Made by a program: the position numbers and the translations under genes. Shown here piece after piece: positions 5,148-44,741 of a DNA stretch of 64,000 bases. The notes under the pieces were generated by a model. The model was given only the letters and a program-made list of their open reading frames with translations. It made no database searches and had not been told where the DNA came from. Positions within the stretch are counted from its first letter, which is position 1, and each line of letters opens with the position of its first letter. The DNA lies in NCBI GenBank assembly GCA_030692565.1, contig JAUYAO010000056.1:1-64000 (forward strand). Reading direction: 5' to 3'. Source of the stretch: Nitrospira sp. Its GTDB lineage: Bacteria > Nitrospirota > Nitrospiria > Nitrospirales > Nitrospiraceae.

Positions 5148-5162
5148 GCATTGGATATGCCT
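5148..5162 (-). promoter_or_regulatory. Candidate sigma-54 (-24/-12) promoter for USP-ATPase-MacA operon
   Basis: On the minus strand the sequence reads AGGCATATCCAATGCA. GG and GC are spaced exactly as in the TGGCAC-N5-TTGCA consensus, with GGCA and TGCA conserved. The predicted transcript start is near 5136, giving a leader of about 50 nt before the ATG at 5086. The call rests on motif match and context only. Confidence 0.45.
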
Positions 5163-5373
5163 GTGGAGTCTGGCAATGGCTGTGGTGAATCTGCATGGTT
5201 TCCAGGGTTTGAAGGCAATCGATGCCTCCATCGAACGGAGTACTGCGGCTTTTTGCAGCAGAGTCGAAATGGTGACTGTGGTGATTGGCCTCAGTCTTCC
5301 CAGGGGGAGGACGAGTTGAATTGGGAATGCGCGTGCCTGTGTGGAAATCCTGATTCCGAGCGATGGCACGTTA

Positions 5374-5388
5374 TGGCATTGTCATTGC
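5374..5388 (+). promoter_or_regulatory. Candidate sigma-54 (-24/-12) promoter for exported-protein gene
   Basis: TGGCATTGTCATTGCG matches the -24/-12 consensus with TGGCA and TTGC both perfect and exact spacing. The predicted transcript start is near 5400, about 20 nt before the ATG at 5421, leaving room for the AGGAGG ribosome-binding site at 5411. This is one of the two strongest matches in the window. Confidence 0.62.
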
Positions 5389-26047: not shown

Positions 26048-26602
26048 CTACACTGCTTTCGTTGCGACCACCGGAGGTGGCTGTACGGTTGTGGCCTGGG
26101 GGCCTTTCTTGCCTTGCTCCACTCCGAACACCACTTCTGTTCCGTCTTCGAGCTGCTCAAACGTGAGGCTGTGAAGTGCATTCGCATGAAAATACACTTC
26201 CCCGCCGCCCTCCTGGAGGATGAACCCATAGCCCTCCTTCGGGAAGAGCTTGCAGATCACTCCGCGATTAGGCGGAACAGGTGAGAGGCGTACTTCGGTC
26301 TGTGCGCGTTTCTCACGAAACTTCCGCAGTTCAATCGTCACGGCTTCAAAGGCGCTCCGGATGGCTTCTTCGAATGTCTTATCCTCCTTCCGGGCCGTCA
26401 AAGTATGCCGACCGGGTAGCGTGACGACCACGAGCGCCTCGGCGACATGGTCCTGCTTTTTGTGATGGCGGTTCTTTGTCAGCGTGACACGACCGTGTGT
26501 GAGGTCATCATGACCCCGCCGGAGATCCTCGATGCGCGCTTCGATTTCTGTCTTCCAACGGGGCGTCATCTCAACATTGCGGCTTTGGATTTCTAAGTCC
26601 AT
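26048..26602 (-). CDS. Ribosome hibernation factor (HPF/RaiA) fused to a cold-shock domain
   Basis: 184 aa. Residues about 1-105 have the HPF/RaiA pattern (RNVEMTPRWKTEIEARIEDL, then VVVTLPGRHTLTARKEDKTF). Residues about 110-170 are a cold-shock domain (RGVICKLFPKEGYGFILQEG, VYFHANAL). HPF proteins silence 70S ribosomes in stationary phase; the cold-shock domain would add RNA binding. RBS AAAGGAGGG precedes the ATG. It is first gene of the operon with the Lon-like protease, nicotinamidase and pncB. Confidence 0.92.
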   Translation of the reverse strand: MDLEIQSRNVEMTPRWKTEIEARIEDLRRGHDDLTHGRVTLTKNRHHKKQDHVAEALVVVTLPGRHTLTARKEDKTFEEAIRSAFEAVTIELRKFREKRAQTEVRLSPVPPNRGVICKLFPKEGYGFILQEGGGEVYFHANALHSLTFEQLEDGTEVVFGVEQGKKGPQATTVQPPPVVATKAV

Positions 26603-26636
26603 CTGGTGCCCTCCTTTTCTTCAGTTCTAACTATCA

Positions 26637-26651
26637 GCAAGCAGGATGCCG
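26637..26651 (-). promoter_or_regulatory. Candidate sigma-54 promoter for the HPF-Lon-NAD salvage operon
   Basis: The minus strand reads CGGCATCCTGCTTGCT, with GGCA at -24 and TTGC at -12 at exact spacing (only the first T differs). The predicted start, near 26625, gives a leader of about 22 nt containing the AAAGGAGGG ribosome-binding site. Confidence 0.55.
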
Positions 26652-26833
26652 CTTGCGTCAAATCCACCGGTTGGAGAATGGCCTCAGAAAGAGGCCATCG
26701 TTTACGCCGTTTTGCGAATGGCCATACTTTTCACGCGGTGAATGACAAGGCAGACTGGCGCATTTCTCCTCAGTGATCGTGATGCGGGTGAAGCGCAATG
26801 CGTCACTTGCAGCACCGTGAGAGGAGGTAGGAG

Positions 26834-26986
26834 ATGGCGAAAGCGGAAATGTATCGTTGGGATCGCTGTTACAGGCGGTCGTTCAGATGGCTGTTCGATT
26901 GGAATGTGACTTGCGTGTCATTTCTGTATGCCGACGCTGAGAAAACAGGCTCTCGAAGAGTATCTCCAGTCGCGTTTTGGACCTGA
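26834..26986 (+). CDS. Possible short gene (50 codons) overlapping the phosphotransferase start
   Basis: The ATG at 26834 has one of the best ribosome-binding sites in the window (GAGGAGGTAGGAG). It opens a 50-codon frame rich in Trp, Arg and Tyr (MAKAEMYRWDRCYRRSFRWL) that ends inside the next gene in a different frame. No family is recognised. It could be a leader peptide that couples translation to the phosphotransferase, which has no RBS of its own, or a chance frame. Confidence 0.35.
   Translation: MAKAEMYRWDRCYRRSFRWLFDWNVTCVSFLYADAEKTGSRRVSPVAFWT
26900..26914 (+). promoter_or_regulatory. Weak sigma-54-like match before the phosphotransferase
   Basis: TGGAATGTGACTTGCG has perfect TTGC and correct spacing, but the -24 element is TGGAA. 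The predicted start near 26926 is 2 nt from the ATG at 26928, which would make the mRNA leaderless. It may be chance. Confidence 0.25.
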
Positions 26987-30093: not shown

Positions 30094-31515
30094 CTATCGA
30101 CCTCCGGCTTTCTTCTTTGTCACTGCGCAAGGCGCCGGTCGACTGAGCTCCGCCGGCAACAGAGTCTGGTTATCGACACAGGCGGTATCCAGCTGCGCTT
30201 GGGTCAGTCCGGCCGATGAGGCCAGATTGGCTCCGTAGAAGTTCGCCTGACGGATGTCGGCCGCATCAAGGCGTGCGCCGCTGAGATCTGCCCCATTGAA
30301 TGAGGCTCTCTGCAGCTTGGCTTCCTGCAGATTGGCGTGGGTCAAATTCGCATGGCTGAAATTGGCATCACTCAAATCGGCGGCGACGAGATTGGCTGAG
30401 TCGAGTGTGGCCTCATTGAATTGTGCCCTAGGCAGGGATGCTTTGGGGGCATAGATCTCGTGCAGGGCGGCTTTGGTAAAGACGGCGTCGGCGCCGTGTG
30501 TGCCGATCATGACGGCATGATGCAGGTTAGCGTCGCGAAAGTCGGCCTTTTCAATGACAGCCTTGTAGAGAATCACCATGCGCATTTTTGCTGATTGGAG
30601 TGAGGCCTTGATGAGGCGCGCGCCTTCCAGATTGGCGCCTTCAAGATCGGCTTGTGCGAGGCGGGTACCCTCCAGATTTGCATGACGGAGATCCGCTCCG
30701 CGGAGGATGGCATCGCGAAGATCGGCGTGTCGAAGGTCGGTATCATCCAGATAGGCGCTTTCTAGATCCGCTTCCATCATACGGGCGTCATTCAAGCGAG
30801 CTCCGTCGAGCAGCGCCCCCTGCAGATTGGTCTGAAGCAGTAGGGCCTTCGACAAGTCGGTCCGGCGAAGATCCGCACCCATCAAATCGGCTCCGGTTAG
30901 GACTGCCTTCTGAAGATTGGCTCCGTAGAGGTAGCTGTCGACCAGCGTCGCGTTCGTAAAGTCAGCCGACGATAAATCGGCTCCCTCGAAATGGGCTCGC
31001 TCGAAGATGGCATCGTGTAGCTGGGCGCCGGATAACGCGGCGTTGTACAGCGCCGCTTCATCGCCGATCGCACGGAGGAGGTTGGCATGTGTCAGTTTGG
31101 CATGACGCAAGTCCGCACCGACTAAATTGCTGTCTTCGAGGTTGGCTTTGGTGAGGTCGGCGCCGGCAAGGCTGGCTTGCGTCAGGATGCTTTGTCTGAG
31201 ATTGGCCTGCCTGAGGTTGACGCCTTCCATCCGGGCACGTTCGAGATTGGCCCCTTCGAGGGAGGCCTGCCGTAAGTCGGCTCCACAGAAATCCGCCCGT
31301 TTATGCCCGGGGCTGTCTCGCTGTTCGAGCCATTCCTGGTGTGCGTGGAGTGTGCTGCGGATGGCGGCTGGAGACAAGGTGCTTTTCTTGTGTGGTTGCT
31401 CGCATCGCTGGACATGGTTTGGTGGAGGTGTTGTGGTTGCTGCCAGAATTGGGGTTGTGGCAATGGTGGATACGATCAACAGGAACAGTCCCTGGCGTAC
31501 GGCGGAATGGATCAT
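30094..31515 (-). CDS. Exported pentapeptide-repeat protein
   Basis: 473 aa from the ATG at 31515, which follows GAGGAG; an upstream in-frame extension is not needed. The signal peptide (about 1-25) is followed by about 370 residues of A(D/N)LXX pentapeptide repeats in long coils (about 75-445). It forms a right-handed quadrilateral beta-helix. Members are often gyrase mimics, but this one should be periplasmic, so that role is unlikely. Many Ala/Leu/Asp positions are regular. It is the last gene of the sORF-USP-FmdB-cytochrome operon, 53 bp behind the cytochrome. Confidence 0.88.
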   Translation of the reverse strand: MIHSAVRQGLFLLIVSTIATTPILAATTTPPPNHVQRCEQPHKKSTLSPAAIRSTLHAHQEWLEQRDSPGHKRADFCGADLRQASLEGANLERARMEGVNLRQANLRQSILTQASLAGADLTKANLEDSNLVGADLRHAKLTHANLLRAIGDEAALYNAALSGAQLHDAIFERAHFEGADLSSADFTNATLVDSYLYGANLQKAVLTGADLMGADLRRTDLSKALLLQTNLQGALLDGARLNDARMMEADLESAYLDDTDLRHADLRDAILRGADLRHANLEGTRLAQADLEGANLEGARLIKASLQSAKMRMVILYKAVIEKADFRDANLHHAVMIGTHGADAVFTKAALHEIYAPKASLPRAQFNEATLDSANLVAADLSDANFSHANLTHANLQEAKLQRASFNGADLSGARLDAADIRQANFYGANLASSAGLTQAQLDTACVDNQTLLPAELSRPAPCAVTKKKAGGR

Positions 31516-31568: not shown

Positions 31569-31937
31569 TCACTTGCCTTGCTGGGAGAGCAGCCGCACAT
31601 AGGCCAACACATCAATCATTTGGCCCTCGGTCAGGCTGCCGGTCCAGGCATGCATGGGACTGAAGACGATCCCATGTTCGATCGTGCGCAGCAGCTCCTC
31701 ATCGGATTTCAGAAAGGATCGAAACAGATGGAAGTTAGCCGGCGCGACTCTGAGCGATGCAGCGGTGGGGCCGTCTCCCCAGCCGGTTTGGCCGTGGCAA
31801 GTTGCGCAGTGGTTCTGATACAGCGCCTTGCCTCGGTGCAGGTCGGCGGGAAGATCCTGGGCCGCAACGGACAGGGCACTGAGTAAGAGACTGACGCCGG
31901 CGGCGAATACGAGCGTTCGAGATGTCTTGTGCATCAT
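31569..31937 (-). CDS. Small c-type cytochrome
   Basis: 122 aa. The signal peptide (about 1-27) precedes a single haem-binding CATCH motif and a distal Met in FSPMHAW. A monohaem class I cytochrome, periplasmic, an electron carrier. The ATG at 31937 overlaps the upstream zinc-ribbon gene stop (TGATG) with AAGAAGAG as RBS. Its electron donor is unknown; the window also holds a formate dehydrogenase and cupredoxins. Confidence 0.9.
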   Translation of the reverse strand: MMHKTSRTLVFAAGVSLLLSALSVAAQDLPADLHRGKALYQNHCATCHGQTGWGDGPTAASLRVAPANFHLFRSFLKSDEELLRTIEHGIVFSPMHAWTGSLTEGQMIDVLAYVRLLSQQGK

Positions 31938-32101
31938 CAACTCTTCTTGGTGGTGTGGGCAATGAATGAGGTGAATAGTTGTTGTAGTTTCTTACTGCCG
32001 CAGGACGGACATTGCACTTCACCGCGTTCGTGCTCTTTCAGAGTCACCACGATCAGCGATTCTTTGCCGCAATCGAGACATTTATAATCATACATTGGCA
32101 T
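31937..32101 (-). CDS. FmdB-family zinc-ribbon protein
   Basis: 54 aa from the ATG at 32101 (MPMYDYKCLDCG), the characteristic FmdB N-terminus; an upstream extension is unlikely. Two CXXC knuckles (C8/C11 and C31/C34 in CPSCG) form a zinc ribbon. FmdB proteins are thought to be regulatory. It lies 17 bp behind the USP gene and is coupled to the cytochrome gene. Basic C-terminus (HTTKKS). Confidence 0.85.
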   Translation of the reverse strand: MPMYDYKCLDCGKESLIVVTLKEHERGEVQCPSCGSKKLQQLFTSFIAHTTKKS

Positions 32102-32117: not shown

Positions 32118-32981
32118 CTAGTGGAAGACCAAGAGTGGACATGGCGCATGATGAAGGACCGCGTGCGCGACGCTGCCGAGCACCATCCGGCTCAGCCCGT
32201 GGCGACCGCGGGACCCCATCATCAGCAGATCGGCACTGATGGCTTTGGCCTCTTGGAGAATCGCTTCGACCGGAACGCCCAAGGTTGATTTCGCATGAGT
32301 GCTGTAGCCCATTTGTTTCAGATCCGCTGCCACGGAGTTGATGAAGCTTTCGGCGCTCCGGAGCGCCTGGCCTTCCATTTCGCGCTCCGCGACGGCGTCG
32401 ACCGGCCACGGCGGCCTGGTCTGCGGGAGCACCGTGAGCGCAGTGATCGTGACTGCTTCCCGGAATGGATGCTGTCGGAGGAACAAGAGCGCTCGCTCGG
32501 CGTCTTGTGATCCTTGCAGCGGCAGCAACACCTGTTTTAGGGACTTCACAAAGTTCGGCAGGATGAGGACGGCGCTCTTGGAGAAGGTGAGCACCCGATG
32601 GGAGACACTGCCGATCAGCCGTTCCTTGATCGGTCCAAGCCCGCGTCCTCCGACAAGAATGAGGTCGATCTGATGCTGCGCTGCATACTCCACGATCCGA
32701 TCGGCGGGTGAGCCGATCTCCATATGTTTGGTCACGGGGCCAGAATCCATCGGCAGGAGCGACACAATGCGATCAAGCAACCGTGCGCCATCTTCGCGCA
32801 TTGTGCGCTCGATGGTCGTATAGAGTTCTTGTGCGACTTCCGGCACCATCATCGGATAGGCCGGTGACGGGACATCCAGGATATGCAGAATATGCAATTC
32901 CTCAGCGCGGGAGAGGTATTTGAGCGCACGAACCGCCTCATAGGATTGATCCGATCCATCGATGGCCAGCAGCATTTTCAT
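32118..32981 (-). CDS. Tandem universal stress protein
   Basis: 287 aa with two Usp domains (about 1-150 and 155-287). The first ends with LILVGGRGLGPIKERLIGS and the second with LLMMGSRGRHGLSRMVLGS, so both retain the ATP-binding signature. Begins MKMLLAIDGSDQSYEA. It follows a 31-aa membrane peptide gene by 18 bp and precedes FmdB. Part of the minus-strand operon driven from the divergent sigma-54 region. Confidence 0.92.
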   Translation of the reverse strand: MKMLLAIDGSDQSYEAVRALKYLSRAEELHILHILDVPSPAYPMMVPEVAQELYTTIERTMREDGARLLDRIVSLLPMDSGPVTKHMEIGSPADRIVEYAAQHQIDLILVGGRGLGPIKERLIGSVSHRVLTFSKSAVLILPNFVKSLKQVLLPLQGSQDAERALLFLRQHPFREAVTITALTVLPQTRPPWPVDAVAEREMEGQALRSAESFINSVAADLKQMGYSTHAKSTLGVPVEAILQEAKAISADLLMMGSRGRHGLSRMVLGSVAHAVLHHAPCPLLVFH

Positions 32982-32999: not shown

Positions 33000-33095
33000 T
33001 CAGTGACAGTCCGTTGGACAGAAGAAGAGGAGATACAGGCCGACCGCCACACCCAGCCCAATTGCTCCTACCAGAATCCAGTGCGTGCGTGTCAT
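33000..33095 (-). CDS. 31-aa single-helix membrane peptide
   Basis: ATG at 33095 with a strong RBS (AAGAGGAG). The peptide begins with TRTH, has one hydrophobic helix (WILVGAIGLGVAVGLYLLFF, residues 6-25) and ends CPTDCH. Too short for routine gene calling. The Cys/His tail could bind a metal or haem, or form a disulfide. It is the first gene after the minus-strand sigma-54 candidate and lies 18 bp ahead of the USP gene. I infer a stress-induced membrane anchor or regulator. Confidence 0.72.
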   Translation of the reverse strand: MTRTHWILVGAIGLGVAVGLYLLFFCPTDCH

Positions 33096-33123
33096 AGGCG
33101 TCTCCTCTTACTCGGTGGAGTCA

Positions 33124-33138
33124 GCAAGTCCAATGCCG
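33124..33138 (-). promoter_or_regulatory. Candidate sigma-54 promoter for sORF-USP-FmdB-cytochrome operon
   Basis: The minus strand reads CGGCATTGGACTTGCT: GGCA and TTGC exact with correct spacing. The predicted start near 33112 is 17 nt before the sORF ATG at 33095, with the AAGAGGAG RBS in between. Confidence 0.6.
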
Positions 33139-33409
33139 TTCCATCGTTTCAGATCGCAGGGGAGGAGGGTGAGGTGAAAGCGCAAGGGACGAAAGGGTTT
33201 CTCGCTGAATGATGTCTTGAGCCCTTCTGCGTCCCTCTGCACTGAGCGCAACGTCTGTTGCCTTCTGCCCCAGGAGGCATCGCGCGACTGTAGCAGGCCT
33301 CCCCGATGGGAGAGACAATAGTGAAGGCCCGGAGTGTTCGGGATGGGCAGCGGCGAGCAAGCCGTTGTTTCTATGCGAGGTCAGTCTCAGGATCGTGATT
33401 GTGATGCAG

Positions 33410-33424
33410 TGGCATTGGCCTTGC
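33410..33424 (+). promoter_or_regulatory. Candidate sigma-54 promoter for the USP/formate operon
   Basis: TGGCATTGGCCTTGCT has perfect TGGCA and TTGC elements at exact spacing and is nearly identical in its upstream half to the 5374 site. The predicted start near 33436 gives a 27-nt leader to the USP gene at 33463. Confidence 0.65.
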
Positions 33425-33462
33425 TGATAGGGGAGAGAGATCTGTTGAGTCGAGAGGTTGCC

Positions 33463-33942
33463 ATGGGAGACAGATTGTTTTCCTCCATTCTAGTGCCGGT
33501 GGATTTTTCGCCTTGCTCGGAAGAGGCCTTCCGGGTGGCCTGCGGGTTGGCGCGGCTGTGCGGCGCCGAGGTCCTGGTGGCGCATGTGATTGACACGAGC
33601 GCGCTCAGCGCTTTTAATCGGATGGGGTTGCTTGCGGTGCCGTCTGATGGGACGGCCCAGAAGCGGCGTCTGCGGCATTTTGCCCGGTTGAATGTTCGTC
33701 GATTGCTCGATTCCGAGGCGGCAAAGGGGATTGCGATGACTCGGGTCGTGTTAGAGGGCGCGCCGTTTGTGGAGATTGCCAAGACTGCCAGGGTCGAAAA
33801 GGTCGATCTCGTCGTCATGGGCAGCTACGGAGGACGGTCGGGGAGCGTTGATAAGATTTTCTTTGGCAGTACGGCAGAAAAGGTGGTGCGGACAGCAGGA
33901 TGTCCAGTGCTGACGGTGCCGCTGCCGGTGAAGCCGCGATGA
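33463..33942 (+). CDS. Universal stress protein (single domain)
   Basis: 159 aa from the ATG at 33463 (MGDRLFSSILVPVDFSPCSE). GAGAGG upstream is the RBS; an open frame reaching back to 33334 crosses the sigma-54 promoter and is unlikely. The Usp ATP motif is DLVVMGSYGGRSGSVDKIFFGS. First gene of the plus-strand operon; the cupredoxin gene follows 34 bp later. Confidence 0.9.
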   Translation: MGDRLFSSILVPVDFSPCSEEAFRVACGLARLCGAEVLVAHVIDTSALSAFNRMGLLAVPSDGTAQKRRLRHFARLNVRRLLDSEAAKGIAMTRVVLEGAPFVEIAKTARVEKVDLVVMGSYGGRSGSVDKIFFGSTAEKVVRTAGCPVLTVPLPVKPR

Positions 33943-33976
33943 TCACTATAATCTGCAATCAAGGAGGCCTGGCACG

Positions 33977-34405
33977 ATGAGAACGCAGAGAGGGCGGATG
34001 TGGGGATGGGCGACCGTGGTGAGCATGACCTGGGCTTTATGGAGCGGGGCGGAGCTTCCGCTCTGGTCGCAGGCTGAACAGGTCGTGGACGTCACGATTA
34101 AGGATTTCAAGTTTATGACCAAGCAAACCACGCTTCGGCTGGGTGTGGCGACGGTGATCAGGATTAAGAACGAGGATACGGAGCGCCACGATTTCGGTTC
34201 AACCATGTTTGAAGGGATTCCGACGCAGGTGGAGAAGGACGGCGTGATTGTCTATGGACGAGGGGTCGGGGGGGTCTTCCTCGATGCCAAACGGGATGCG
34301 GCATTGCGGTTCAATATGTCCCGTCCTGGCCGTCACGAATTTCGCTGCTCAATCCATCCGAATATGAACGGGGAGCTTCTGCTCTTGAACGTGGAGGCCG
34401 TGTGA
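33977..34405 (+). CDS. Cupredoxin-like exported protein
   Basis: 142 aa. A signal peptide (about 1-32, ending LWSQAEQ) precedes a beta-sandwich. Copper-ligand pattern: His in ERHDFGS, then C and H in GRHEFRCSIHPNMNGE, with Met. Plastocyanin-type electron carrier, periplasmic. It could accept electrons from an inner-membrane complex. Lies in an operon between two USP genes; its stop overlaps the GTG start of the next gene (GTGA). Confidence 0.82.
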   Translation: MRTQRGRMWGWATVVSMTWALWSGAELPLWSQAEQVVDVTIKDFKFMTKQTTLRLGVATVIRIKNEDTERHDFGSTMFEGIPTQVEKDGVIVYGRGVGGVFLDAKRDAALRFNMSRPGRHEFRCSIHPNMNGELLLLNVEAV

Positions 34406-35361
34406 GCGGAGAGACCGACAGACCACGCATTCTTCTGGCAACCGATTTTTCCAAATGGGCCCTGCGGGCGGAGGAATACGCCTGTTGCCTGGCCGCGACA
34501 TGGCGGGCCACGCTGACCGTCCTCACGGTGCTGGAGTTCCCGCCCGGCATGAATCCGGAGTATCCCGTCAACCAGGTCTATCTCGGCGAGCTCATGAAAG
34601 CAGGGGCAAAGCAGTTGGTGGATTTGAAGGCGCGGGCCTCGGCTCGCGGGATTTCTTTGCATACACGGATCGCCACAGGAATTCCTTGTGACGAGGTGTT
34701 GGCGGCCGTGAAGGCGGAGGATTCGGATCTGGTGGTCGTCGGCACGAAAGGCAAGTCCGGTCTGGCGCATGTGCTGCTCGGAAGCACCGCAGAACGAGTC
34801 ATTCGCACGGCGCCCTATCCGGTGCTCACCGTGCGTATGGATTCGGATGAGGTGTCTTCAGCGGAGGCGGGTCCGTGTGGGGGAATCAGTCTCAATCGAA
34901 TTCTGGTCCCGGTCGATTTCTCAGATTGTTCCCTGGAAGCCGTGGAGTACGCCGCACTCATGGCTCAACGGCATAGCGCATCTCTGACGCTGTTGCATGT
35001 GCTGGAACCTGTCTCCTACGGCTTGGATTTCACGCTCTTGCATAGCGGCAAGCGGGAGGAGATGCGGGAGCGGTTGACGGCTCGATTGGGTGATATGACG
35101 CGGGCGCTGGCCGATGCCAAGATTCAAGCCGATTCGCAGGTGCGTGGGGGAACCCCGTTTGAATCGATTCTCGACAGTGCCAGGACTATTCCGGCCGATC
35201 TGATTGTCATGGGAACGCATGGGCGTCGCGGGTTGTCCCATGCACTGAGCGGGAGTGTGGCGGAGGCGGTGCTACGCCAGTCTCGTTGCCCGGTGCTCAC
35301 CGTCCGCAGCCCGAAATATGCCTCGGGGCATCGCCGGGTGTTACCCGGAATGACCACATAA
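34402..35361 (+). CDS. Tandem universal stress protein
   Basis: 319 aa starting at a GTG that overlaps the cupredoxin stop. Two Usp domains (about 8-150 and 165-300) both keep the nucleotide motif: LVVVGTKGKSGLAHVLLGS and LIVMGTHGRRGLSHALSGS. A short acidic/Gly linker joins the domains. Cytoplasmic. The third gene of the sigma-54-type plus operon. Confidence 0.92.
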   Translation: MSGETDRPRILLATDFSKWALRAEEYACCLAATWRATLTVLTVLEFPPGMNPEYPVNQVYLGELMKAGAKQLVDLKARASARGISLHTRIATGIPCDEVLAAVKAEDSDLVVVGTKGKSGLAHVLLGSTAERVIRTAPYPVLTVRMDSDEVSSAEAGPCGGISLNRILVPVDFSDCSLEAVEYAALMAQRHSASLTLLHVLEPVSYGLDFTLLHSGKREEMRERLTARLGDMTRALADAKIQADSQVRGGTPFESILDSARTIPADLIVMGTHGRRGLSHALSGSVAEAVLRQSRCPVLTVRSPKYASGHRRVLPGMTT

Positions 35362-35391
35362 GTGTCCAGTCTTTTACCAGGGGGGGCTATT

Positions 35392-35607
35392 ATGGCGACC
35401 GTGATCCGAAAGCGAAAGAATCCACCGGCCAGCCGGCCGTCACGCACGGCCAATCCGATCGAATTGCCCGATGGCATGAGGGATCGTATCGCCGCGAAGG
35501 CGTATGAATTATGGCATGAGCGGGGTCGTCAAGAAGGCCGGGATCTCGAAGATTGGCTCGATGCGGAGGCGATCGTGATGGAAGAGATTCATGAAGCTCG
35601 CGAATGA
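35392..35607 (+). CDS. DUF2934-family small protein
   Basis: 71 aa from the ATG at 35392 behind a G-rich RBS (AGGGGGG). The C-terminal 45 residues have the DUF2934 pattern (RIAAKAYELWHERGRQEGRD, LEDWLDAEAIV). The N-terminus is basic. Function unknown. It overlaps the next gene by 17 bp and sits between the USP and formate dehydrogenase genes. Confidence 0.8.
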   Translation: MATVIRKRKNPPASRPSRTANPIELPDGMRDRIAAKAYELWHERGRQEGRDLEDWLDAEAIVMEEIHEARE

Positions 35608-36994
35608 ATCAACGGCCGGTGTGTGGGCGCCGTTGCCGCCGGGGCTGGATGGCCTGGTGGATCGGTTGGAGGCGCTGTCCCTCGGTCCGATGTTTGCGGC
35701 GGAACGGGATCGTGCCTTGCGCCAGGCGTTACGTCCGTATTTTGAGTTTGCCGGGAACGCCCCGCTTCCCCCGTTTGCTCAGGAGGTCGATCTCGCAACG
35801 TTCACGATCTATGCGGACTACTATCCCCAGGACGGACAGCTGACCCTGATCGAGCAGTTGCGCGATGTGGTGACTGAGCATATTCCTGAGGAAGAGCGGG
35901 CCTGGATGGATCCGCTCAAACACTCGTATCTGGACCTGGTCGAAATCGTACCCGCCGGCGACGCGACGGGGAAATGGGCCTGCCGGTCTTTGGGAAACGG
36001 CCGTCTTTATCAGGTGCAAGGCGGTGAGTTTAGCCTGGGGGCGCAGGCCGGTCAGGTGTTGTTGACGCGATTCGTGCAACAGCCCGGTGACCCTGAAACG
36101 AACGAGGTCGTACTCGGCGGGAGTGCGCTGCTGCTTTCTCCTGAGGAAGGCCGAACGTTGTACGACGCTGTCTGCGCATTGCGTCGCCAACGGGAAATCA
36201 ATGCCGGGTCTTTCGAGCTCGGCGACTGGCATGAGTTTGCCAAGCGATTCGGATATGAGTTGCTCTGGGTCTATTCGCAGATGCGTCTGCGAGCGCTCTA
36301 CCAGGTCGTGGCCGGAATCCGGTACTGTCATCCCGATGGGCAGCCGTATCTCTATTCGTTTGCGCTCTACGAGCATCGGGAATTCAAATTTCTTCGTGAG
36401 ACCTTGGCCGGAATGAGTGGTCTGGATCCTGATCCGGCGACTGTTCACACATCAGGCGGATCGGGCGCACGCATGCGGTGGGTGCAACATGGATCGGTTG
36501 AGGCGGGCAATCCGGCGGTCGTCACTCGTCTCACGTTGACGTCTACTCAACTGTGGGTGGAAACCGACTCGCGTGAACGGCTGGATACTCTGAAGCACCA
36601 GTTGGCGTCGGCCTTAGGTTTTTCGCTCCATTTCCTGGGAGAAGCGACCGTCCCTCCGCCACACCTGTTGAGTGAGGAAGAACTCGATGCCGAACAGCCG
36701 GTACGAGTCATCGTGACTCAGGAGCAGGATGCGACGTTGTTGCAAGCGTTTTTGGAGACCGCCTATCTGGATTGGACCGATCGGGAAGCGCCGGTGCTGG
36801 GGGGCAAAACGCCGCGCCATGCCGCCACGACGCAGGACGGACGTGAACAGGTGGCCCGGTTGCTCGATGAGATGGAACAGAACGATTTCGGCTGGTCCCG
36901 TATCGGCCGACCGGCATTTGACTATAACGTGCTCCGCGGGCATGTTGGCATCGATGAGGTACGCCGTGAAGACGCTCCCGCCGAACGCGCTTGA
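35591..36994 (+). CDS. Unknown 467-aa protein ahead of formate dehydrogenase
   Basis: No signal peptide or membrane segment; probably cytoplasmic. The N-terminal about 370 residues are not recognised (contains PYFEFAGNAPLPPFAQEVDL and YEHREFKFLRETLAGM). The C-terminal part (about 385-460: AYLDWTDREAPVLGGKTPRH then GREQVARLLDEMEQND) resembles the short helical tail found on SEC-C/MbcA-Xre-type proteins. Position directly before fdsG (overlap about 29-41 bp) suggests an assembly or regulatory partner of the formate enzyme. It is not FdhD or a known maturase. Confidence 0.72.
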   Translation: MKLANESTAGVWAPLPPGLDGLVDRLEALSLGPMFAAERDRALRQALRPYFEFAGNAPLPPFAQEVDLATFTIYADYYPQDGQLTLIEQLRDVVTEHIPEEERAWMDPLKHSYLDLVEIVPAGDATGKWACRSLGNGRLYQVQGGEFSLGAQAGQVLLTRFVQQPGDPETNEVVLGGSALLLSPEEGRTLYDAVCALRRQREINAGSFELGDWHEFAKRFGYELLWVYSQMRLRALYQVVAGIRYCHPDGQPYLYSFALYEHREFKFLRETLAGMSGLDPDPATVHTSGGSGARMRWVQHGSVEAGNPAVVTRLTLTSTQLWVETDSRERLDTLKHQLASALGFSLHFLGEATVPPPHLLSEEELDAEQPVRVIVTQEQDATLLQAFLETAYLDWTDREAPVLGGKTPRHAATTQDGREQVARLLDEMEQNDFGWSRIGRPAFDYNVLRGHVGIDEVRREDAPAERA

Positions 36995-37436
36995 TGACCT
37001 CCTGACCCGTGCACGCCCGGCCGAGGGCGCGTCCCCGAACATCCTTCGCGTACTCCATGCTATCCACGATGTGTGCGGATTTATCGATCCAGGACTTATC
37101 CCGGCTATCGCTCGCTCGCAAGGGGGCACCGAGGCCGAGGTGGCCGGTGTGTTGTCCTACTATCCTTCGCTGAATACTCAGCCGGTCGGGCGACATCGAG
37201 TTCAGGTATGCCTTGGCGAGTCCTGCCTTGCCAATCGATGCGATCGAGTGGTGGAGGTGATTCAGTCAAAGCTGGGGATCGATTTGGGCCAGACGACGTC
37301 CGATAGCCGGTTCACGCTTGAGCCGGTGTCCTGTGTCGGCAATTGTGCGGTGTCGCCGAGCGTGCGAATCGACGGAGAACTACACGGGCGGGTCCGGCCT
37401 AGCGATGTCCCTGGCCTTCTGGATCGTTATCGATGA
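36966..37436 (+). CDS. fdsG: Formate dehydrogenase gamma subunit (NuoE-like, 2Fe-2S)
   Basis: 156 aa from a GTG at 36966 (MKTLPPNALDD) with GAGG 6 nt upstream; an ATG at 36954 is also possible. NuoE/HoxE-like: a thioredoxin-like 2Fe-2S domain with CLGESC early and CVGNCAVSP late. It passes electrons to the NAD-binding subunit in soluble NAD-dependent formate dehydrogenases. It overlaps the unknown gene upstream and the fdsB ATG downstream (ATGA). Confidence 0.88.
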   Translation: MKTLPPNALDDLLTRARPAEGASPNILRVLHAIHDVCGFIDPGLIPAIARSQGGTEAEVAGVLSYYPSLNTQPVGRHRVQVCLGESCLANRCDRVVEVIQSKLGIDLGQTTSDSRFTLEPVSCVGNCAVSPSVRIDGELHGRVRPSDVPGLLDRYR

Positions 37437-38926
37437 GCCGCATCAGACTCTACCTTTCCAACGACACCTCATCTTGTGCGGCCGGAGCGGAACGCCTCGC
37501 CGAGGCTTGGCGTTCACGGTCCGACGTTGAGCTAGTCCGAACGTCTTCCCGCGGCGCGTTCTTTCTTGAGCCGATGGTCGAGCGCGATAGTCCTGATGGG
37601 CGCCTGGCCTGGTGCCAGGTGGCGCCCGCCGATCTTCCCAGGATTCTGGCAGGCGACGGCGGCGTTCCGGTTTCCACTATTCCATTCCTTGCGAAGCAGA
37701 CGAGACATACGTTCGCCTCATTTGGCGTGACCGAGCCCTTGTCGACGGAGGCGTATCAGGCGCATGGCGGTCTTGCCGGTCTTCGTGCCGCGCAGCAGGT
37801 GAGTCCTGCGGCCATTATCCAGGAGATCAAGACGTCTCGATTGCGCGGACGGGGGGGCGCTGCCTTTCCTGTGTGGAAAAAGTGGGAGGTCGCTGCCGCG
37901 ACCACGGCGGACCGCAAGTACGTGGTCGCCAATGCCGATGAGGGCGATGCGGGAACCTACTGTGACCGGATGATCATGGAGGGCGATCCGTTCCGCCTGA
38001 TCGAAGGCATGCTGATTTGCGGGCGGGCCATCGGGGCGCAGGCCGGTTACGTCTACTGCCGACGGGAGTACCCGACCGCCACAGCCGGCTTGCATGCGGC
38101 CATTCGGGCGGCGGAGGCCGCCGGGTGGCTGGAAATTGACGGGCGGCGGTTCTCCATCGCGGTGGTGTCCGGAGCAGGTTCCTATGTGTGCGGCGAAGAA
38201 ACGGCCCTATTGGAATCGCTGGAAGGGCGGCGCGGTGTCGTGCGTGCGCGGCCTCCGCATCCGGCGCAGTCCGGTCTCTACGGCCGGCCGACGATTGTCA
38301 GTAACGTCCTCACCTTTGCCACGATCCCGAATATCCTCGCGCGGGGTGGAGCCTGGCATGCGTCGATGGGAACAGAGGGTTCGCGCGGCACCGCAGTCCT
38401 TCAACTCGGCGGACGGGTGAAGCAGCCGGGACTCATTGAGATTCCGTTCGGTCTCACGCTCCGTGAGGTGCTCGATCAATTCGGACAGGGAATGGCAGAT
38501 GGCGCGCGCCTGAAGGCCGTGCAGGTCGGAGGACCGCTCGGCAGCCTATTTGCGGACGCGCAGTTGGATATTCCGATCTGTTTCGATGCGTTTGCCAAGG
38601 CGGATGCGATTCTCGGTCATGGCGGTATCGTCGTGTTCGATGACGAGACCGATATGTTGGAGCTCTCCCGGCATCTGATGGCCTTTGTGGCGGATGAGTC
38701 CTGCGGGAAATGCGTGCCTTGCCGTATCGGATCTCTGCGGGCGCGCGAGATCCTTGAAACGGTTCAAGCGGGGCAGGCGACGGAGGCGGATTTGGCCCTG
38801 CTGACTGAGCTGGGCGATACGATGAAGGCAACCAGCTTGTGCGGACTGGGATCGCGAGCTCCCTATCCGGTGCTGTCGGCCTTAGAGCAATTTCCCGTGG
38901 ATTTTCGCAGCCGGGTGCGATCATGA
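37433..38926 (+). CDS. fdsB: Formate dehydrogenase beta subunit (NuoF-like, NAD/FMN)
   Basis: 497 aa. The N-terminus (about 1-90) is thioredoxin-like, as in FdsB/HoxF. NAD/FMN motifs: GRGGAAFPVWKKW, NADEGDAGTYCDRM and YVCGEETALLESLEGRRG. 4Fe-4S ligands C424, C427, C430 (SCGKCVPCRIGS) and C470. It reduces NAD+ with electrons from formate. Coupled to fdsG (ATGA) and to fdsA (ATGA). Confidence 0.93.
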   Translation: MSRIRLYLSNDTSSCAAGAERLAEAWRSRSDVELVRTSSRGAFFLEPMVERDSPDGRLAWCQVAPADLPRILAGDGGVPVSTIPFLAKQTRHTFASFGVTEPLSTEAYQAHGGLAGLRAAQQVSPAAIIQEIKTSRLRGRGGAAFPVWKKWEVAAATTADRKYVVANADEGDAGTYCDRMIMEGDPFRLIEGMLICGRAIGAQAGYVYCRREYPTATAGLHAAIRAAEAAGWLEIDGRRFSIAVVSGAGSYVCGEETALLESLEGRRGVVRARPPHPAQSGLYGRPTIVSNVLTFATIPNILARGGAWHASMGTEGSRGTAVLQLGGRVKQPGLIEIPFGLTLREVLDQFGQGMADGARLKAVQVGGPLGSLFADAQLDIPICFDAFAKADAILGHGGIVVFDDETDMLELSRHLMAFVADESCGKCVPCRIGSLRAREILETVQAGQATEADLALLTELGDTMKATSLCGLGSRAPYPVLSALEQFPVDFRSRVRS

Positions 38927-41676
38927 GTGATTCAATATTGATGACGATCGACGGCTCGCCGGTGACGGCGCATGCAGTCGATACGGTATTCACCGCTGCC
39001 AAGCGGGCGGGCTTGACGATCCCCGGCCTCTGCACCTCTGACCATCTTGCGCCATTCGGGTCGTGTCGGCTCTGTGTCTGTGAAGTGGAAGGACAGAAAG
39101 GGACGCCGGCCTCCTGCACGATGCCTGTACAGGCCGGTATGGCGGTGCATACGCAGACCGACCGGCTGGTTCGGCTGCGACGGAACGTGACGGAACTCTT
39201 GCTGTCAGAGCAGCCGACAGATGGGACGTTGCCTGCCGTGCTCCAAGAATTGGCGCGGTCGGTGGGCCTCGACCATGTTCGGTACCGCCAGCCGACTGTC
39301 CGGGATCAAGTACGGGACAGCTCGAATCCGTTTTTTACCTTTGATAATGCCAGATGTATTTCCTGCGCGCGCTGCGTGCGGGCGTGCGACGAGATCCAAG
39401 GGACGTTCGCCCTCACGATGGTGGGGAGGGGATTCGGTGCCAGGCCGATGGCCGGCGCGGCTTTCTACGGGGACGCTTCCACGGGGTTTGCTACCTCAAA
39501 TTGCGTGTCCTGCGGGGCTTGCGTGAAGGAATGTCCGACCGGTGCTCTGGTCGAGAAGACCGTACAGCAGCATGGTCACCCAACGGAGACTGTCCGCACG
39601 ACCTGCGCCTATTGCGGTGTGGGCTGCATTTTCGACGCCGGTCTTCGGGACGGGCGGGTGGTGACGATGGTGCCGGCCGATGACGGACCCTCCAATCACG
39701 GTCATGCCTGTATGAAGGGGCGATTCGGCTGGACCTATATCTATGCAGAGGACCGGCTGAAGACGCCGATGTTGCGCACTGGAAACACCTGGCAGTCTAT
39801 CTCCTGGGAAGCGGCCCTCGACCGTGTGGCTGACGAGTTCACCAGAATCAAGAAGGAGTTCGGTTCTGATGCGCTGGCGGCTATCTCTTCCAGCCGGGGG
39901 ACGAACGAGGAAAATTATCTCTTCGGGAAATTCATTCGCTGCGTCATGGGGACCAATCACATCGACAACTGCGCGCGGGTCTGCCACAGCGCGACCGTCA
40001 CCGGCATGATGGAGACGCTGGGCGCGTCCGCCGCCACCAACTCGATCCAGGATCTCGATCAGGCCAAGCTCATCATGGTGGTGGGCGCCAACCCGACCGA
40101 ATCGCATCCGGTGGTCGGTGCGAGCATCAAACAGGCGCATCGCCGGGGCGTTCCGCTCATTGTGATTGACCCCCGAAAGACCGAACTGGCTCGGCTGGCG
40201 ACGCTGCACTTGCCGCTCAAGCCCGGAACGAACGTCGCTCTCCTGAACGGCATCGGTCATGTGATCGCGAAAGAGGGCCTGCTCGACGGCGCCTTCATCG
40301 ACGCTCGAACCGATGGCCTCGACGATTGGCTGAAGGCCGTTGAGCCCTGTACCCCGGAAAGAACGGAGCAGATCACCGGCGTGCCGACCGATCTGATTCG
40401 TGAGGCGGCCAGGCGGTATGCGACGAGCGGCGCGTCTTTGTGCGTGCACGGCCTGGGTATGACGGAGCATCGCTGGGGGAGCCACGGTGTGATGGCCTTG
40501 GTGGATCTGGCGCTGGCGACGGGGAATATCGGCCGGCCAGGGACCGGCATCAATCCGCTCCGTGGCCAGAACAATGTGCAAGGCGCGTCGGACGTGGGCT
40601 GCTTGCCGGTGTATTTTGCCGGCTATCAATCGTTGGACGATGTAGAGCTGGGAAGGCTGCATCAGCAGGTCACCGGGCGGCCCTTGCCGACGAAACGCGG
40701 GATGAAGACGCCGGACATGTGGGACGCGGCGTTGGCCGGACGGTTGAAGGGTTTGTGGGTCATCGGCTATGACGTGGCGCAGACCGATCCTAATCTCAAG
40801 AAGGTCCGTGAGGCCTTGAGAAGCATTGAGTTCTTGGTGGTGCAGGATTTGTTCATGAGTGAAACGGCCAAGCTGGCCCATCTCGTCCTGCCCGGCGCCT
40901 CGTTCCTGGAGAAGGACGGCACGTTCACGAACCTGGAACGGCGGATTCAACGCATACGAAAAGCGGTCGATCCGCCTCAGGGTGTCTTGTCGGACTGGCA
41001 GGTCGTCTGTGAAGTATCGACTCGCATGGGCTATCCGATGAGCTATCGGCACCCGTCGGACATCATGGATGAGATCGCGCGGCTGACGCCGATGTTCGCC
41101 GGGGTGTCGTATGACCGGCTGGAGGCGCCGGAAGGGTTGCAGTGGCCGGTTCCTGCGGTCGGGCATGGTGGTACCGCGCTCATGCATCGCGACCGGTTCC
41201 CGAAAGGAAAAGCGCACTTCGTCGGGGTGGACTATCTGCCGCCCGGCGAATCGCCGACGGAGGAGTATCCCTTTACGCTCGTGACCGGACGGATCCTGCA
41301 ACATTACAATTGCGGCGCACAAACGCGGCGGACCGATATTCTCGAGGTCGTGGATGTCGATGTGCTGGAGATGCATCCGGAAGATGCGGCGAGGATGCAG
41401 GTCGGGGGAGGGGATCTGATCCGGCTGGTGAGTCCGAGAGGGGCCGTCCTCTTGCCGGTGGTAGTCAGCGAGCGCGTGCAGCCGGGACAGCTCTTTACCA
41501 GTTTCCATTTTCCCGCCAGCGACGTCAATTCTTTGCTGTCCTCCAGTTCCGATGACCTGTCGCGTTGTCCGGAATACAAGGTCTCGGTCGTCCGGGTCGA
41601 ACGAGTGGAACGGGAAGAACTCGATGCGGAGGATGAGCGAGAACTGGAAGCCGTCCACGTGAGACTGATTACGTGA
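38923..41676 (+). CDS. fdsA: NAD-dependent formate dehydrogenase alpha subunit (molybdopterin)
   Basis: 917 aa from the ATG at 38923. In order: 2Fe-2S domain with C37, C48, C51, C65; His/Cys domain; two 4Fe-4S ferredoxin clusters (C145-C155 and C194-C204); bis-MGD entry motif TTCAYCGVGCIFDAG; catalytic Cys354 in NCARVCHSATVTGM (TGC, not selenocysteine); then Mo-cofactor-binding domains and a C-terminal MopB domain. It oxidises formate to CO2; the Fds complex is cytoplasmic. The gene overlaps fdsB and the transporter gene. Confidence 0.94.
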   Translation: MSDSILMTIDGSPVTAHAVDTVFTAAKRAGLTIPGLCTSDHLAPFGSCRLCVCEVEGQKGTPASCTMPVQAGMAVHTQTDRLVRLRRNVTELLLSEQPTDGTLPAVLQELARSVGLDHVRYRQPTVRDQVRDSSNPFFTFDNARCISCARCVRACDEIQGTFALTMVGRGFGARPMAGAAFYGDASTGFATSNCVSCGACVKECPTGALVEKTVQQHGHPTETVRTTCAYCGVGCIFDAGLRDGRVVTMVPADDGPSNHGHACMKGRFGWTYIYAEDRLKTPMLRTGNTWQSISWEAALDRVADEFTRIKKEFGSDALAAISSSRGTNEENYLFGKFIRCVMGTNHIDNCARVCHSATVTGMMETLGASAATNSIQDLDQAKLIMVVGANPTESHPVVGASIKQAHRRGVPLIVIDPRKTELARLATLHLPLKPGTNVALLNGIGHVIAKEGLLDGAFIDARTDGLDDWLKAVEPCTPERTEQITGVPTDLIREAARRYATSGASLCVHGLGMTEHRWGSHGVMALVDLALATGNIGRPGTGINPLRGQNNVQGASDVGCLPVYFAGYQSLDDVELGRLHQQVTGRPLPTKRGMKTPDMWDAALAGRLKGLWVIGYDVAQTDPNLKKVREALRSIEFLVVQDLFMSETAKLAHLVLPGASFLEKDGTFTNLERRIQRIRKAVDPPQGVLSDWQVVCEVSTRMGYPMSYRHPSDIMDEIARLTPMFAGVSYDRLEAPEGLQWPVPAVGHGGTALMHRDRFPKGKAHFVGVDYLPPGESPTEEYPFTLVTGRILQHYNCGAQTRRTDILEVVDVDVLEMHPEDAARMQVGGGDLIRLVSPRGAVLLPVVVSERVQPGQLFTSFHFPASDVNSLLSSSSDDLSRCPEYKVSVVRVERVEREELDAEDERELEAVHVRLIT

Positions 41677-42533
41677 ACGCGCCGCTGCCCACGTCTCCCT
41701 CAACCATTGTGCCCATGCCAGACGCCTACGCTCCGGCGGAGGTGGCGAAGCGGGTCCGCGATGTCGGGGGGAAGAAGGCGACCGCTCCGGCAGTCACCCT
41801 GTTGGCCCTTGCGGTTCTTGCCGGAGCCTTCATTGCGCTCGGCGCACTGTTCTATGTCGTGACGGTGACAGCCGGGCCTGGCCAAACGAGCCATTTCGGA
41901 TTCACGAGGCTGATTGGCGGGGCGGCGTTCAGTCTCGGGTTGATTCTCGTGGTGGTCGGCGGGGCGGAATTGTTTACCGGCAATAATTTGATGGCGATGG
42001 CCTGGGCCGCCGGGCGCGTGACGGGTGTGCAAGTGTTGCGCAACTGGGGATTGGTCTATCTTGGAAATCTGGCGGGCGCCATCGGGACGGTCGCGCTGGT
42101 GTTGTTGGCCGGGATTCCTCAACTGGGTGATGGCGTCGTCGGCGAGACGATGATCCGGATTGCGCGCGCAAAAGTCACGCTCGATCCCGTGTCGGCGCTG
42201 GCGCGAGGGGTGCTCTGCAATGTGCTCGTCTGCCTGGCGGTCTGGCTCTGTATGGCGGCGAGAAGTGTAACGGATAAGATCCTGGCGATCGTCTTTCCGA
42301 TCAGTGCGTTTGTCGCCTGCGGGTTCGAACATTCCGTGGCCAATATGTTCTTCCTTCCTTTGGGGATCGCGTTGACGGCTTCGGGGGGCGACCCGATCGC
42401 CTGGACAGGGGCCTGGGTCAATCTTGCGGTCGTCACCATCGGCAATGTGATCGGCGGAACAGGGCTCGTAGCCTTGGTCTACTGGTTCGTGTATCTTCGC
42501 GGGGACGGCATGAGTCCCGAGGCCAGGGGGTAG
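41673..42533 (+). CDS. focA: Formate/nitrite transporter (FocA-type)
   Basis: 286 aa, GTG start overlapping the fdsA stop (GTGA). Six membrane helices follow an N-terminus of about 45 residues. FNT signature regions: LVVVGGAELFTGNNLMAMAW and SAFVACGFEHSVANMFFLPLGI. FNT channels carry formate or nitrite across the membrane. Immediate linkage to fdsGBA argues for formate uptake. The family forms pentamers. Confidence 0.92.
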   Translation: MNAPLPTSPSTIVPMPDAYAPAEVAKRVRDVGGKKATAPAVTLLALAVLAGAFIALGALFYVVTVTAGPGQTSHFGFTRLIGGAAFSLGLILVVVGGAELFTGNNLMAMAWAAGRVTGVQVLRNWGLVYLGNLAGAIGTVALVLLAGIPQLGDGVVGETMIRIARAKVTLDPVSALARGVLCNVLVCLAVWLCMAARSVTDKILAIVFPISAFVACGFEHSVANMFFLPLGIALTASGGDPIAWTGAWVNLAVVTIGNVIGGTGLVALVYWFVYLRGDGMSPEARG

Positions 42534-42576
42534 AGGACGAAGACGGTTCTCCCTACGGAGCGGCGCGCGAGATCCT

Positions 42577-43506
42577 ATGATTTATACGGTCACTCTCAAT
42601 CCGGCGTTGGATCATTTTCTCGATGTCGACGATCTGCGTGTGGACGATGCGAACCGAGTCAAGGGCGAGTGCCTCTATGCCGGCGGGAAGGGCATCGATG
42701 TGTCGCGCGCGATCCGGCATTTGGGCGGAGAGAGCATGGCGCTGGGATTTATCGGCGGGCATACCGGCCAGGTCATGATCGAGTTGCTGAAGGCGGAGGG
42801 GGTGACCTGTTATTTCACCGCCATTGCGCAGGAGACGCGGCGCAATATTATCGTGACCACCGCGCGGGGGCGTACCCAGACGATGCTCAATTCGCGCGGG
42901 CCGATGGTGACGAAGACAGAATGGGCCGCCTTTCTCGCGCACCTCACGCTGCTGAATCTTCGGGATGCCTACGTGGTCGTGAGCGGGAGTCTTCCGAGGG
43001 GCGTTCCGACTGATGCCTATCGTCAAATCATCGCGTTAGTTCAATCGCGCGGCGCCCGAGCGGTCCTGGATGCTGATGGCCCCTGTCTGAAATCGGGCCT
43101 TCGGGCAAAGCCGTTTGCCATCAAGCCGAATGTGAATGAACTGCGCCGGCTGACAGGGCGACCGCTGCGGTCTGAACGCGATCTCATTCGGGCCGCCGAA
43201 CGAGTGCGGGATTCCGGGGTGGAGGTCGTCATGGTATCGCGAGGGGCGCAAGGGGTTGTGGTGCTTGGGCCAGGGGAGCGGTATCGGGCGAAGCCCCCGG
43301 CGGTGAAGGTCCGCAGTACTGTCGGAGCGGGCGATTCGACGGTGGCGGGATTTGTGTTCACCCATGCCGCAGGAAAAGGGCTGGAGGCCTGTGCGCGGAT
43401 CGCCACGGCGGCGGGGACTGCGGCGACGCTGGCGCCGGGGAATCAGCTGTGCCGCGTGGACGATGTGCGGCGATTGGCTCTCAAAGTGAAAGTGGTGTCG
43501 TTTTAA
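42577..43506 (+). CDS. PfkB-family sugar kinase (6-phosphofructokinase 2-like)
   Basis: 309 aa. Begins YTVTLNPALDHFLDVDDL, with AGGKGIDVSRAIRHLGGES and the anion-hole/catalytic motif STVGAGDSTVAGF. It resembles PfkB/LacC/FruK enzymes that phosphorylate fructose-6-phosphate or similar. 43 bp downstream of focA, so likely co-transcribed. PfkB-type kinases recur in dormancy regulons such as DosR. Substrate not settled by sequence. Confidence 0.9.
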   Translation: MIYTVTLNPALDHFLDVDDLRVDDANRVKGECLYAGGKGIDVSRAIRHLGGESMALGFIGGHTGQVMIELLKAEGVTCYFTAIAQETRRNIIVTTARGRTQTMLNSRGPMVTKTEWAAFLAHLTLLNLRDAYVVVSGSLPRGVPTDAYRQIIALVQSRGARAVLDADGPCLKSGLRAKPFAIKPNVNELRRLTGRPLRSERDLIRAAERVRDSGVEVVMVSRGAQGVVVLGPGERYRAKPPAVKVRSTVGAGDSTVAGFVFTHAAGKGLEACARIATAAGTAATLAPGNQLCRVDDVRRLALKVKVVSF

Positions 43507-43528
43507 TCTCGTGCACGATGGAGGACGT

Positions 43529-44386
43529 ATGAAAGTGCTTGTGGCGACCGATGGATCGAAATATGGCCGATGGGCAATTGAATGGGTGGCGAAACTCCCG
43601 CTGACGGTCAAGCCGGGCGTGCGGGTGTTGCATGTGGTGGATGTCGCGAGCCTCCGTGCGCCGTTCATGATTCAGCCGGTGGTGGTGGGGACCGAGCGAT
43701 ACATTCAGCAAGAAGTGAAACGCATGGAAGCGGCGGCGGCGTCTGCGAAGACGGAGTCGAAGGACTTGCTCTCGTCGTTGGGCATGAGCGGTACGGTCAC
43801 CCTGGAGCGGGGCGCGGTGGCGGCGACCATCACGAAGCATGCCTCGCGAGGCGTCGGGTTGCTGGCGCTTGGGTCACGAGGGCTGGACGCGTTGGATCGT
43901 TTCATGCTCGGGAGCATCTCGACCCATGCGATCCATCATGCCGCCTGTTCGGTGCTGATCGTCAAAGAGGCCTCTCGTCCGCTCAAGCAGATCGTCCTGG
44001 CGATCGATGGGTCTGCGGCATCGGACAAGGCGGTTCGGTTTCTCGTCAAAAATATCAATCCGCAGTCGAACGGGCCTGAAGAGCAACCGGTGAACGTCAC
44101 CGTGGTGCACGCGATGCCTTTCCTCAAATATCCGGAAGTCCGGGAAACGGGTAAGGCGATTGTTCAGCGGTATGCCGACAAATTGGCCAAGGCCGGGTTT
44201 CAAGTTCAAGAGGCTCCGAAGCTCGGCAAGCCGGCCGAGGAGATTCTCAAAGTCGCCAAGGCTCATAAGGCCGATCTGATCGTCACCGGGGCCAAGGGCC
44301 TCGGTGCCATCGGGCGAGTCTTGTTGGGGAGTGTGTCGACGCGCGTGGTGCAGCACAGCACCTGTTCCGTCCTGGTTGTCCGCTGA
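43529..44386 (+). CDS. Tandem universal stress protein
   Basis: 285 aa from the ATG at 43529, which follows GGAGG. Two Usp domains (about 1-145 and 148-285): LLALGSRGLDALDRFMLGS and LIVTGAKGLGAIGRVLLGS. Last gene of the plus-strand operon, 22 bp behind the PfkB kinase and convergent with the signalling cassette downstream. Confidence 0.92.
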   Translation: MKVLVATDGSKYGRWAIEWVAKLPLTVKPGVRVLHVVDVASLRAPFMIQPVVVGTERYIQQEVKRMEAAAASAKTESKDLLSSLGMSGTVTLERGAVAATITKHASRGVGLLALGSRGLDALDRFMLGSISTHAIHHAACSVLIVKEASRPLKQIVLAIDGSAASDKAVRFLVKNINPQSNGPEEQPVNVTVVHAMPFLKYPEVRETGKAIVQRYADKLAKAGFQVQEAPKLGKPAEEILKVAKAHKADLIVTGAKGLGAIGRVLLGSVSTRVVQHSTCSVLVVR

Positions 44387-44414: not shown

Positions 44415-44741
44415 TTAGGCGCGGTAGATGATGTGGACGCGGGAGAGGAAGTCTTCGAGCGCGGCGGTCTGTCTCTTGATCGCGGGTTCGTCGCGTCGGC
44501 CTGCCGCCAACTCCATCACGCCGCCGATGTCGCTAATGGCGTTGAATCCATACCCGCCCCCGTCGCCCCGCATGCGGTGACCCAGGATGCGAATCGTCTC
44601 GAAATCCTTTTCGGTCATGGCGGTGCGGAGCGTCTGAAGATCCTTCTGGCGGTTGGCCAGGAAGGTGGGGATGATGTCCTCCAGATCCGGATCGATATAG
44701 ACGGTGATGCGTTCGGGAGAGGCGAGCTTCGGATTGGTCAT
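44415..44741 (-). CDS. Hpt (histidine phosphotransfer) protein
   Basis: 108 aa, almost all one Hpt four-helix domain; the phosphoacceptor His lies in [15 protein letters not shown]. It transfers phosphoryl groups between receiver domains. It overlaps the stop of the hybrid kinase gene (ATGA), which lacks its own Hpt. So the two form one phosphorelay. Cytoplasmic. Confidence 0.88.

Follow-up and report, generated by a model that had tools for sequence, protein, structure and literature searches.

A predicted bidirectional sigma-54 control region with a tandem dyad enhancer between stress and formate dehydrogenase operons of Nitrospira

The NtrC enhancer at glnAp2 consists of two 17-bp dyads, each with a 5-bp centre and the half-site TGCACC, which lie about three helical turns apart, and for enhancers of the NtrC family the -24/-12 promoter lies roughly 100-150 bp downstream. 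The element described here is alike in its 17-bp dyads, 5-bp centre, spacing of about three turns and position upstream of a -24/-12 promoter, but it differs in its half-site (TGnnGY), in lying centrally between opposed promoters and in its targets, which are stress and anaerobic genes.

In Desulfovibrio vulgaris, according to the excerpted text of a study of predicted sigma-54 regulons (PMC4641369), comparative footprinting ties enhancer-binding proteins (EBPs) to palindromic sites that precede conserved -24/-12 promoters; formate metabolism is included in these regulons, and TGT...ACA half-sites are common. Nitrospira, by contrast, belongs to another phylum and the target genes are others, and the same excerpted description contains no 33-bp tandem with a GC core. 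Four UspA proteins of N. marina are raised at low oxygen, and all of them adjoin operons which are also raised and which serve electron transport, carbon and alternative energy metabolism, and a formate dehydrogenase is raised too (PMC8115632). That study concerns protein abundance only, however, promoter and sigma factor being undiscussed (neither word is present), and the formate dehydrogenase of N. marina is divergent from that of other Nitrospira. Sigma-54-type regulators beside nxrAB in Nitrospira have been suggested to control energy metabolism (PMC6606698, PMC7522533), but those concern nitrite oxidoreductase. The literature searched yielded neither a link from these regulators to operons for universal stress proteins (USPs) or formate nor a published sigma-54 study of the stress and formate dehydrogenase operons considered here.

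The window, that is, the whole stretch of 64,000 nucleotides analysed from a Nitrospira sp. contig (JAUYAO010000056.1), contains at 33096-33462 what is very probably (probability about 0.86) a bidirectional sigma-54 control region between two back-to-back operons. Both of its outward-facing sites combine a -24 GG with a -12 GC at the invariant spacing (TGGCAY-N5-TTGC). The promoters and the genes behind them are as follows.

33124-33138, minus strand: -24/-12 element CGGCATTGGACTTGC, predicted sigma-54 promoter of the minus operon; start predicted at ~33112, 17 nt 5' of the first ATG
33000-33095, minus strand: single-span membrane protein of 31 aa, MTRTHWILVGAIGLGVAVGLYLLFFCPTDCH; first gene of the minus operon, unannotated
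32118-32981, minus strand: universal stress protein with two Usp domains (PF00582)
31937-32101, minus strand: FmdB-type zinc ribbon protein (PF09723)
31569-31940, minus strand: cytochrome c (PF13442)
30094-31515, minus strand: pentapeptide repeat protein (PF00805)
33410-33424, plus strand: -24/-12 element TGGCATTGGCCTTGC, predicted sigma-54 promoter of the plus operon; start predicted at ~33436, 27 nt 5' of the ATG at 33463
33463-33942, plus strand: universal stress protein (PF00582), first gene of the plus operon
33977-34405, plus strand: cupredoxin (PF13473)
34402-35361, plus strand: universal stress protein with two Usp domains (Pfam)
35362-35607, plus strand: DUF2934 protein (Pfam)
35591-36994, plus strand: protein of 467 aa, function unassigned, conserved across the genus; sub-threshold Xre_MbcA_ParS_C match only
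36729-37436 (ORF), plus strand: NuoE-like formate dehydrogenase partner
37433-38926, plus strand: NuoF-like formate dehydrogenase partner
38926-41676, plus strand: FdhA (TIGR01591)
41673-42533, plus strand: formate/nitrite channel (PF01226)
42577-43506, plus strand: PfkB-family kinase (Pfam)
43511-44386, plus strand: universal stress protein, last gene of the plus operon

The genes of the plus operon span ~10.9 kb (33463-44386), and no gap between them exceeds ~45 bp. FdhA scores 825.4 bits against the NCBIfam family for the formate dehydrogenase alpha subunit (TIGR01591, cut-off 666.25 bits), and by such family assignment the NuoE-like, NuoF-like and FdhA proteins together form an NAD-type formate dehydrogenase. 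The 467-aa protein matched no family above cut-off and has no relative in the PDB. A hybrid histidine kinase with a GAF domain and two receiver domains (44738-46996, minus strand) is encoded convergently to the last part of the plus operon. The sequence-only reading had given the two promoter sites with exactly these sequences and coordinates; Pfam confirms the gene content it had claimed for the minus operon (membrane peptide, USP, FmdB, cytochrome and pentapeptide protein) and bears out the ~11-kb plus operon with USPs, cupredoxin, formate dehydrogenase, formate channel and PfkB kinase.

The evidence that carries the promoter pair comes from footprinting of the orthologous divergent regions of the genus Nitrospira, aligned on the two flanking stress-protein genes (n=70). 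Of these 70 loci, 68 have both sites intact and facing outward, 182-345 bp apart, and the plus site, which is conserved in N. moscoviensis and N. defluvii too, lies mostly 31-53 bp from the USP start codon. One locus (L230) is without the sites, and in some loci an extra gene, MgtE-like by sequence, intervenes between the minus site and the USP, the minus site still being beside the enhancer. The rest of the intergenic DNA is mostly diverged; the only strongly conserved block between the promoters, apart from the two -24/-12 elements, is the putative enhancer (GCCTTCTGCyaCAG...CTGTAGCAG). Such genus-wide conservation strongly supports the divergent sigma-54 promoters that had been proposed for both operons, and we infer that both operons depend on sigma-54. 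In one relative (L076:2337 and 3941) the leading USP gene is tandemly duplicated together with its upstream region.

The conserved block between the promoters resolves into a tandem of NtrC-style 17-bp dyads, TGnnGY-N5-RCnnCA, the starts of which are 33 bp apart.

33256-33272: putative activator dyad 1, TGTTGCCTTCTGCCCCA, consensus TGTNGC-N5-GCNACA; conserved footprint block
33289-33305: putative activator dyad 2, TGTAGCAGGCCTCCCCG, offset from dyad 1 by 33 bp; the left half is conserved, the right one degenerate at this locus
33248-33261: inverted repeat GCAAC-GTCT-GTTGC, not conserved; its right arm GTTGC overlaps dyad 1

The last of these had been put forward as a possible activator site; the repeat is present, but in that role it fails, not being conserved in the footprint; it reaches no further than the left edge of the conserved block. 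Another candidate, the conserved block read as one long inverted repeat, CTGCTACAG-N14-CTGTAGCAG, was replaced by the two 17-bp dyads, because secondary sites in relatives (TGTCGCCTTCTGCGACA) show two dyads. These secondary sites came from a profile of the conserved block (R1), built from sequence only and used for a search in the genus, which recovered the dyad block at this locus genus-wide and further copies elsewhere. The further copies are pairs of 17-bp dyads, each dyad having a 5-bp centre, with TGTCGCCTTCTGCGACA first and TGTAGCAAAGGGCTAC 33 bp further along. They lie ~135 bp before YGGYTC-N5-TTGCA promoters, behind which are found genes for cytochrome c', outer-membrane efflux, FtsH, phosphoketolase, trehalose/glycogen and MlaC.

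Within the organism's own genome the R1 profile performed poorly because it is tuned to this locus, the 33256-33305 site alone being returned at a good E-value, and the strict dyad TGTNGC-N5-GCNACA occurred there four times, with four occurrences in the reversed control and hence no excess. The relaxed tandem (TGnnGY-N5-RCnnCA twice, at 33-bp spacing, with at most 2 mismatches) has three copies in the window against 0.33 expected under a Markov model; these begin at 5244, 26756 and 33256, are the only window copies at that threshold, and all lie between divergent sigma-54 sites. With at most 1 mismatch the same search of the own genome found nine places and none in the reversed control, missing 33256-33305 because dyad 2 of that tandem is weak, departing from the strict consensus at 3 positions. 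The gap from enhancer to -24 element is 81-84 bp in 6 of 12 own-genome cases, among them the cytochrome c'-hemerythrin operon, YtxH (then DnaJ), the REC-EBP2 genes described below and a locus with flavodoxin-like and G6PD genes; in the others it is 95-118 bp. One helical phase of the enhancer relative to the -24 element is common to half of the cases, the others differing, and phase was not used as support. Three of the own-genome places (C57, C45:41233 and C31:47738) are without a good sigma-54 site nearby, and these matches may well be chance. The geometry is that of an NtrC-type enhancer, with 33-34 bp between dyads and 81-118 bp to the -24 element; the NtrC half-site TGCACC-N5-GGTGCA is absent, the form here being TGnnGY-N5-RCnnCA. 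To judge from its sequence, the tandem works like NtrC sites, yet it is not an NtrC site.

The sequence-only reading had implied two divergent pairs in the window with a shared activator site, as at 5163-5373. Both pairs are real, but the window has three, the further one lying at 26602-26928; and a shared element does exist, in that both regions carry the same tandem dyad, but it is not the GCAAC-GTCT-GTTGC repeat.

5148-5388: first divergent pair, with minus site 5148-5162, plus site 5374-5388 and tandem dyads 5244-5293
26637-26914 (within 26602-26928): third divergent pair, missed before, with tandem dyads 26756-26805
26637-26651, minus strand: minus site of the third pair, toward S30AE/cold-shock (S30AE-CSD) and LonB protease genes
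26900-26914, plus strand: plus site of the third pair, toward APH-like and APS-kinase-like genes

Footprints of the first and third pairs show the same tandem in relatives. The third pair is conserved in 16 relatives; at the first, the minus site and dyads are conserved in almost all of 29, many relatives keeping these two elements without a clear plus site.

The genome encodes rpoN (PF04552, E=7.3e-57) and about 20 EBPs; the EBPs passed no NCBIfam equivalog cut-off. A search for an EBP linked to the motif common to 33096-33462 and 5163-5373, as had been proposed, does yield a candidate, chosen by position and shared sites.

L274:9558-15344 (own genome C16): candidate regulator cluster in the order EBP1, PAS histidine kinase (HK), REC, EBP2; REC is preceded by the enhancer and a sigma-54 promoter

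EBP2 lies behind a lone receiver gene (REC), the promoter of which has the same tandem and a sigma-54 site, and this enhancer recurs across the genus in those relatives with enough upstream sequence, with 3 mismatches in some. EBP1, a response-regulator EBP, stands just upstream with the PAS histidine kinase and is 84-98% identical across the genus; the order EBP1-HK-REC-EBP2 is kept in all 15 genomes examined. Among 36 genomes of relatives, 15 have secondary enhancers no more than 50 kb from EBP2, against ~1.5 expected. We therefore lean, by a little, towards this cluster as the source of the EBP acting at 33096-33462. EBP1 would be the better guess for the direct binder because of its higher conservation, and REC-EBP2 could then be a target or a second tier. 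Elsewhere, the sigma-54 interaction domain of one EBP gene (L282:2643-6000; own genome C4:67124-68912) is split by ~1.3 kb, probably an inserted element.

On the proposed mechanism, sigma-54 RNA polymerase would wait at the two outward-facing -24/-12 promoters, 33124-33138 and 33410-33424, while one EBP, as two dimers, would bind the tandem dyads at 33256-33305, loop to either promoter and open it with ATP, such that the minus and plus operons would be switched on together. The same enhancer would serve the pairs at 5148-5388 and 26637-26914 and further genes in the genome. In place of one regulator, each of the three divergent pairs may in principle be under a different paralogous EBP with related sites, an explanation we regard as unlikely while taking it seriously. 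The dyads differ systematically between the three loci (TGCGGC..GCAGCA, TGACGC..ACCACA), so that paralogous EBPs may share the regulon, and with ~20 EBPs encoded there is no shortage of them; yet the tandem geometry of 33-34 bp and the TGnnGY-N5-RCnnCA core are common to the loci and rare, and intermediates, for example TGTAGC..GCGACA, are found at the third pair in relatives.

It is improbable that sigma-70-type or other promoters mainly drive both operons, the conserved -24/-12 sites being minor or poised. Consensus -24/-12 matches alone are at chance level in the window (61 observed against 65.6 expected at up to 2 mismatches; 5 against 4.35 for sites scoring at least 15; no excess over shuffled sequence), and an argument for the promoter pair from consensus counts was dropped for this reason; the pair is significant because of its position and conservation. 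A scan of 33000-33500 with the E. coli consensus, from which sigma-70 promoters of Nitrospira may deviate, found no sigma-70-like promoter, and against such a promoter stand also the retention of both -24/-12 elements amid diverged DNA, leaders of fitting length and an enhancer close enough for looping. Binding of the dyads by a repressor or another regulator, such as one of CRP/FNR type, is less credible still: activator and repressor are indistinguishable from sequence alone, and in other bacteria FNR-type proteins often regulate such genes in response to oxygen, but tandem 17-bp dyads three helical turns apart, with 81-118 bp to the -24 element, are of NtrC type and not FNR boxes, and the element accompanies sigma-54 promoters both in the genome and in the genus.

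The proposed sigma-54 control region at 33096-33462 is ordinary in mechanism; it has good support, is found across the genus and belongs to a larger predicted regulon whose regulator can be put to the test. At something like even odds, the signal may be oxygen or energy limitation, this role being the likeliest because of the low-oxygen proteomics of N. marina and because the promoter is kept without formate dehydrogenase. In relatives devoid of the formate dehydrogenase genes, the promoter and the first genes are retained; the one such relative examined (L184:12124-15972) has a phosphofructokinase gene (PF00365) in place of the missing ones. The nitrite-oxidising Nitrospira dominate nitrite oxidation and survive oxygen-poor periods. 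The analysis provides a defined enhancer, a list of promoters with three divergent control regions among them, and a specific cluster as candidate regulator, and the switch to alternative energy sources is directly testable without genetics in this hard-to-grow organism. A wider reading, towards which we are evenly disposed, joins these elements into a sigma-54 survival regulon common to the genus, with one autoregulated two-component/EBP cluster in control via a single tandem enhancer; its members would be USPs, formate dehydrogenase or phosphofructokinase, S30AE-type proteins, LonB, cytochrome c' and hemerythrin, and its minus operon would open with a previously unrecognised 31-aa CPxDC membrane protein.

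The 31-aa ORF very probably is a real gene, because its length is kept, its ending is conserved and third-position variation is dominant. An ORF of exactly 31 aa follows the promoter in 42 of 62 loci, that length being absent from about a third; the C-terminal end reads CP-x-[DE]-C across loci and CPxDC here; and substitutions by codon position number 5666/1870/13340, the third position varying far more than the first and second. At 31 aa, the ORF is shorter than the usual ORF length limits.
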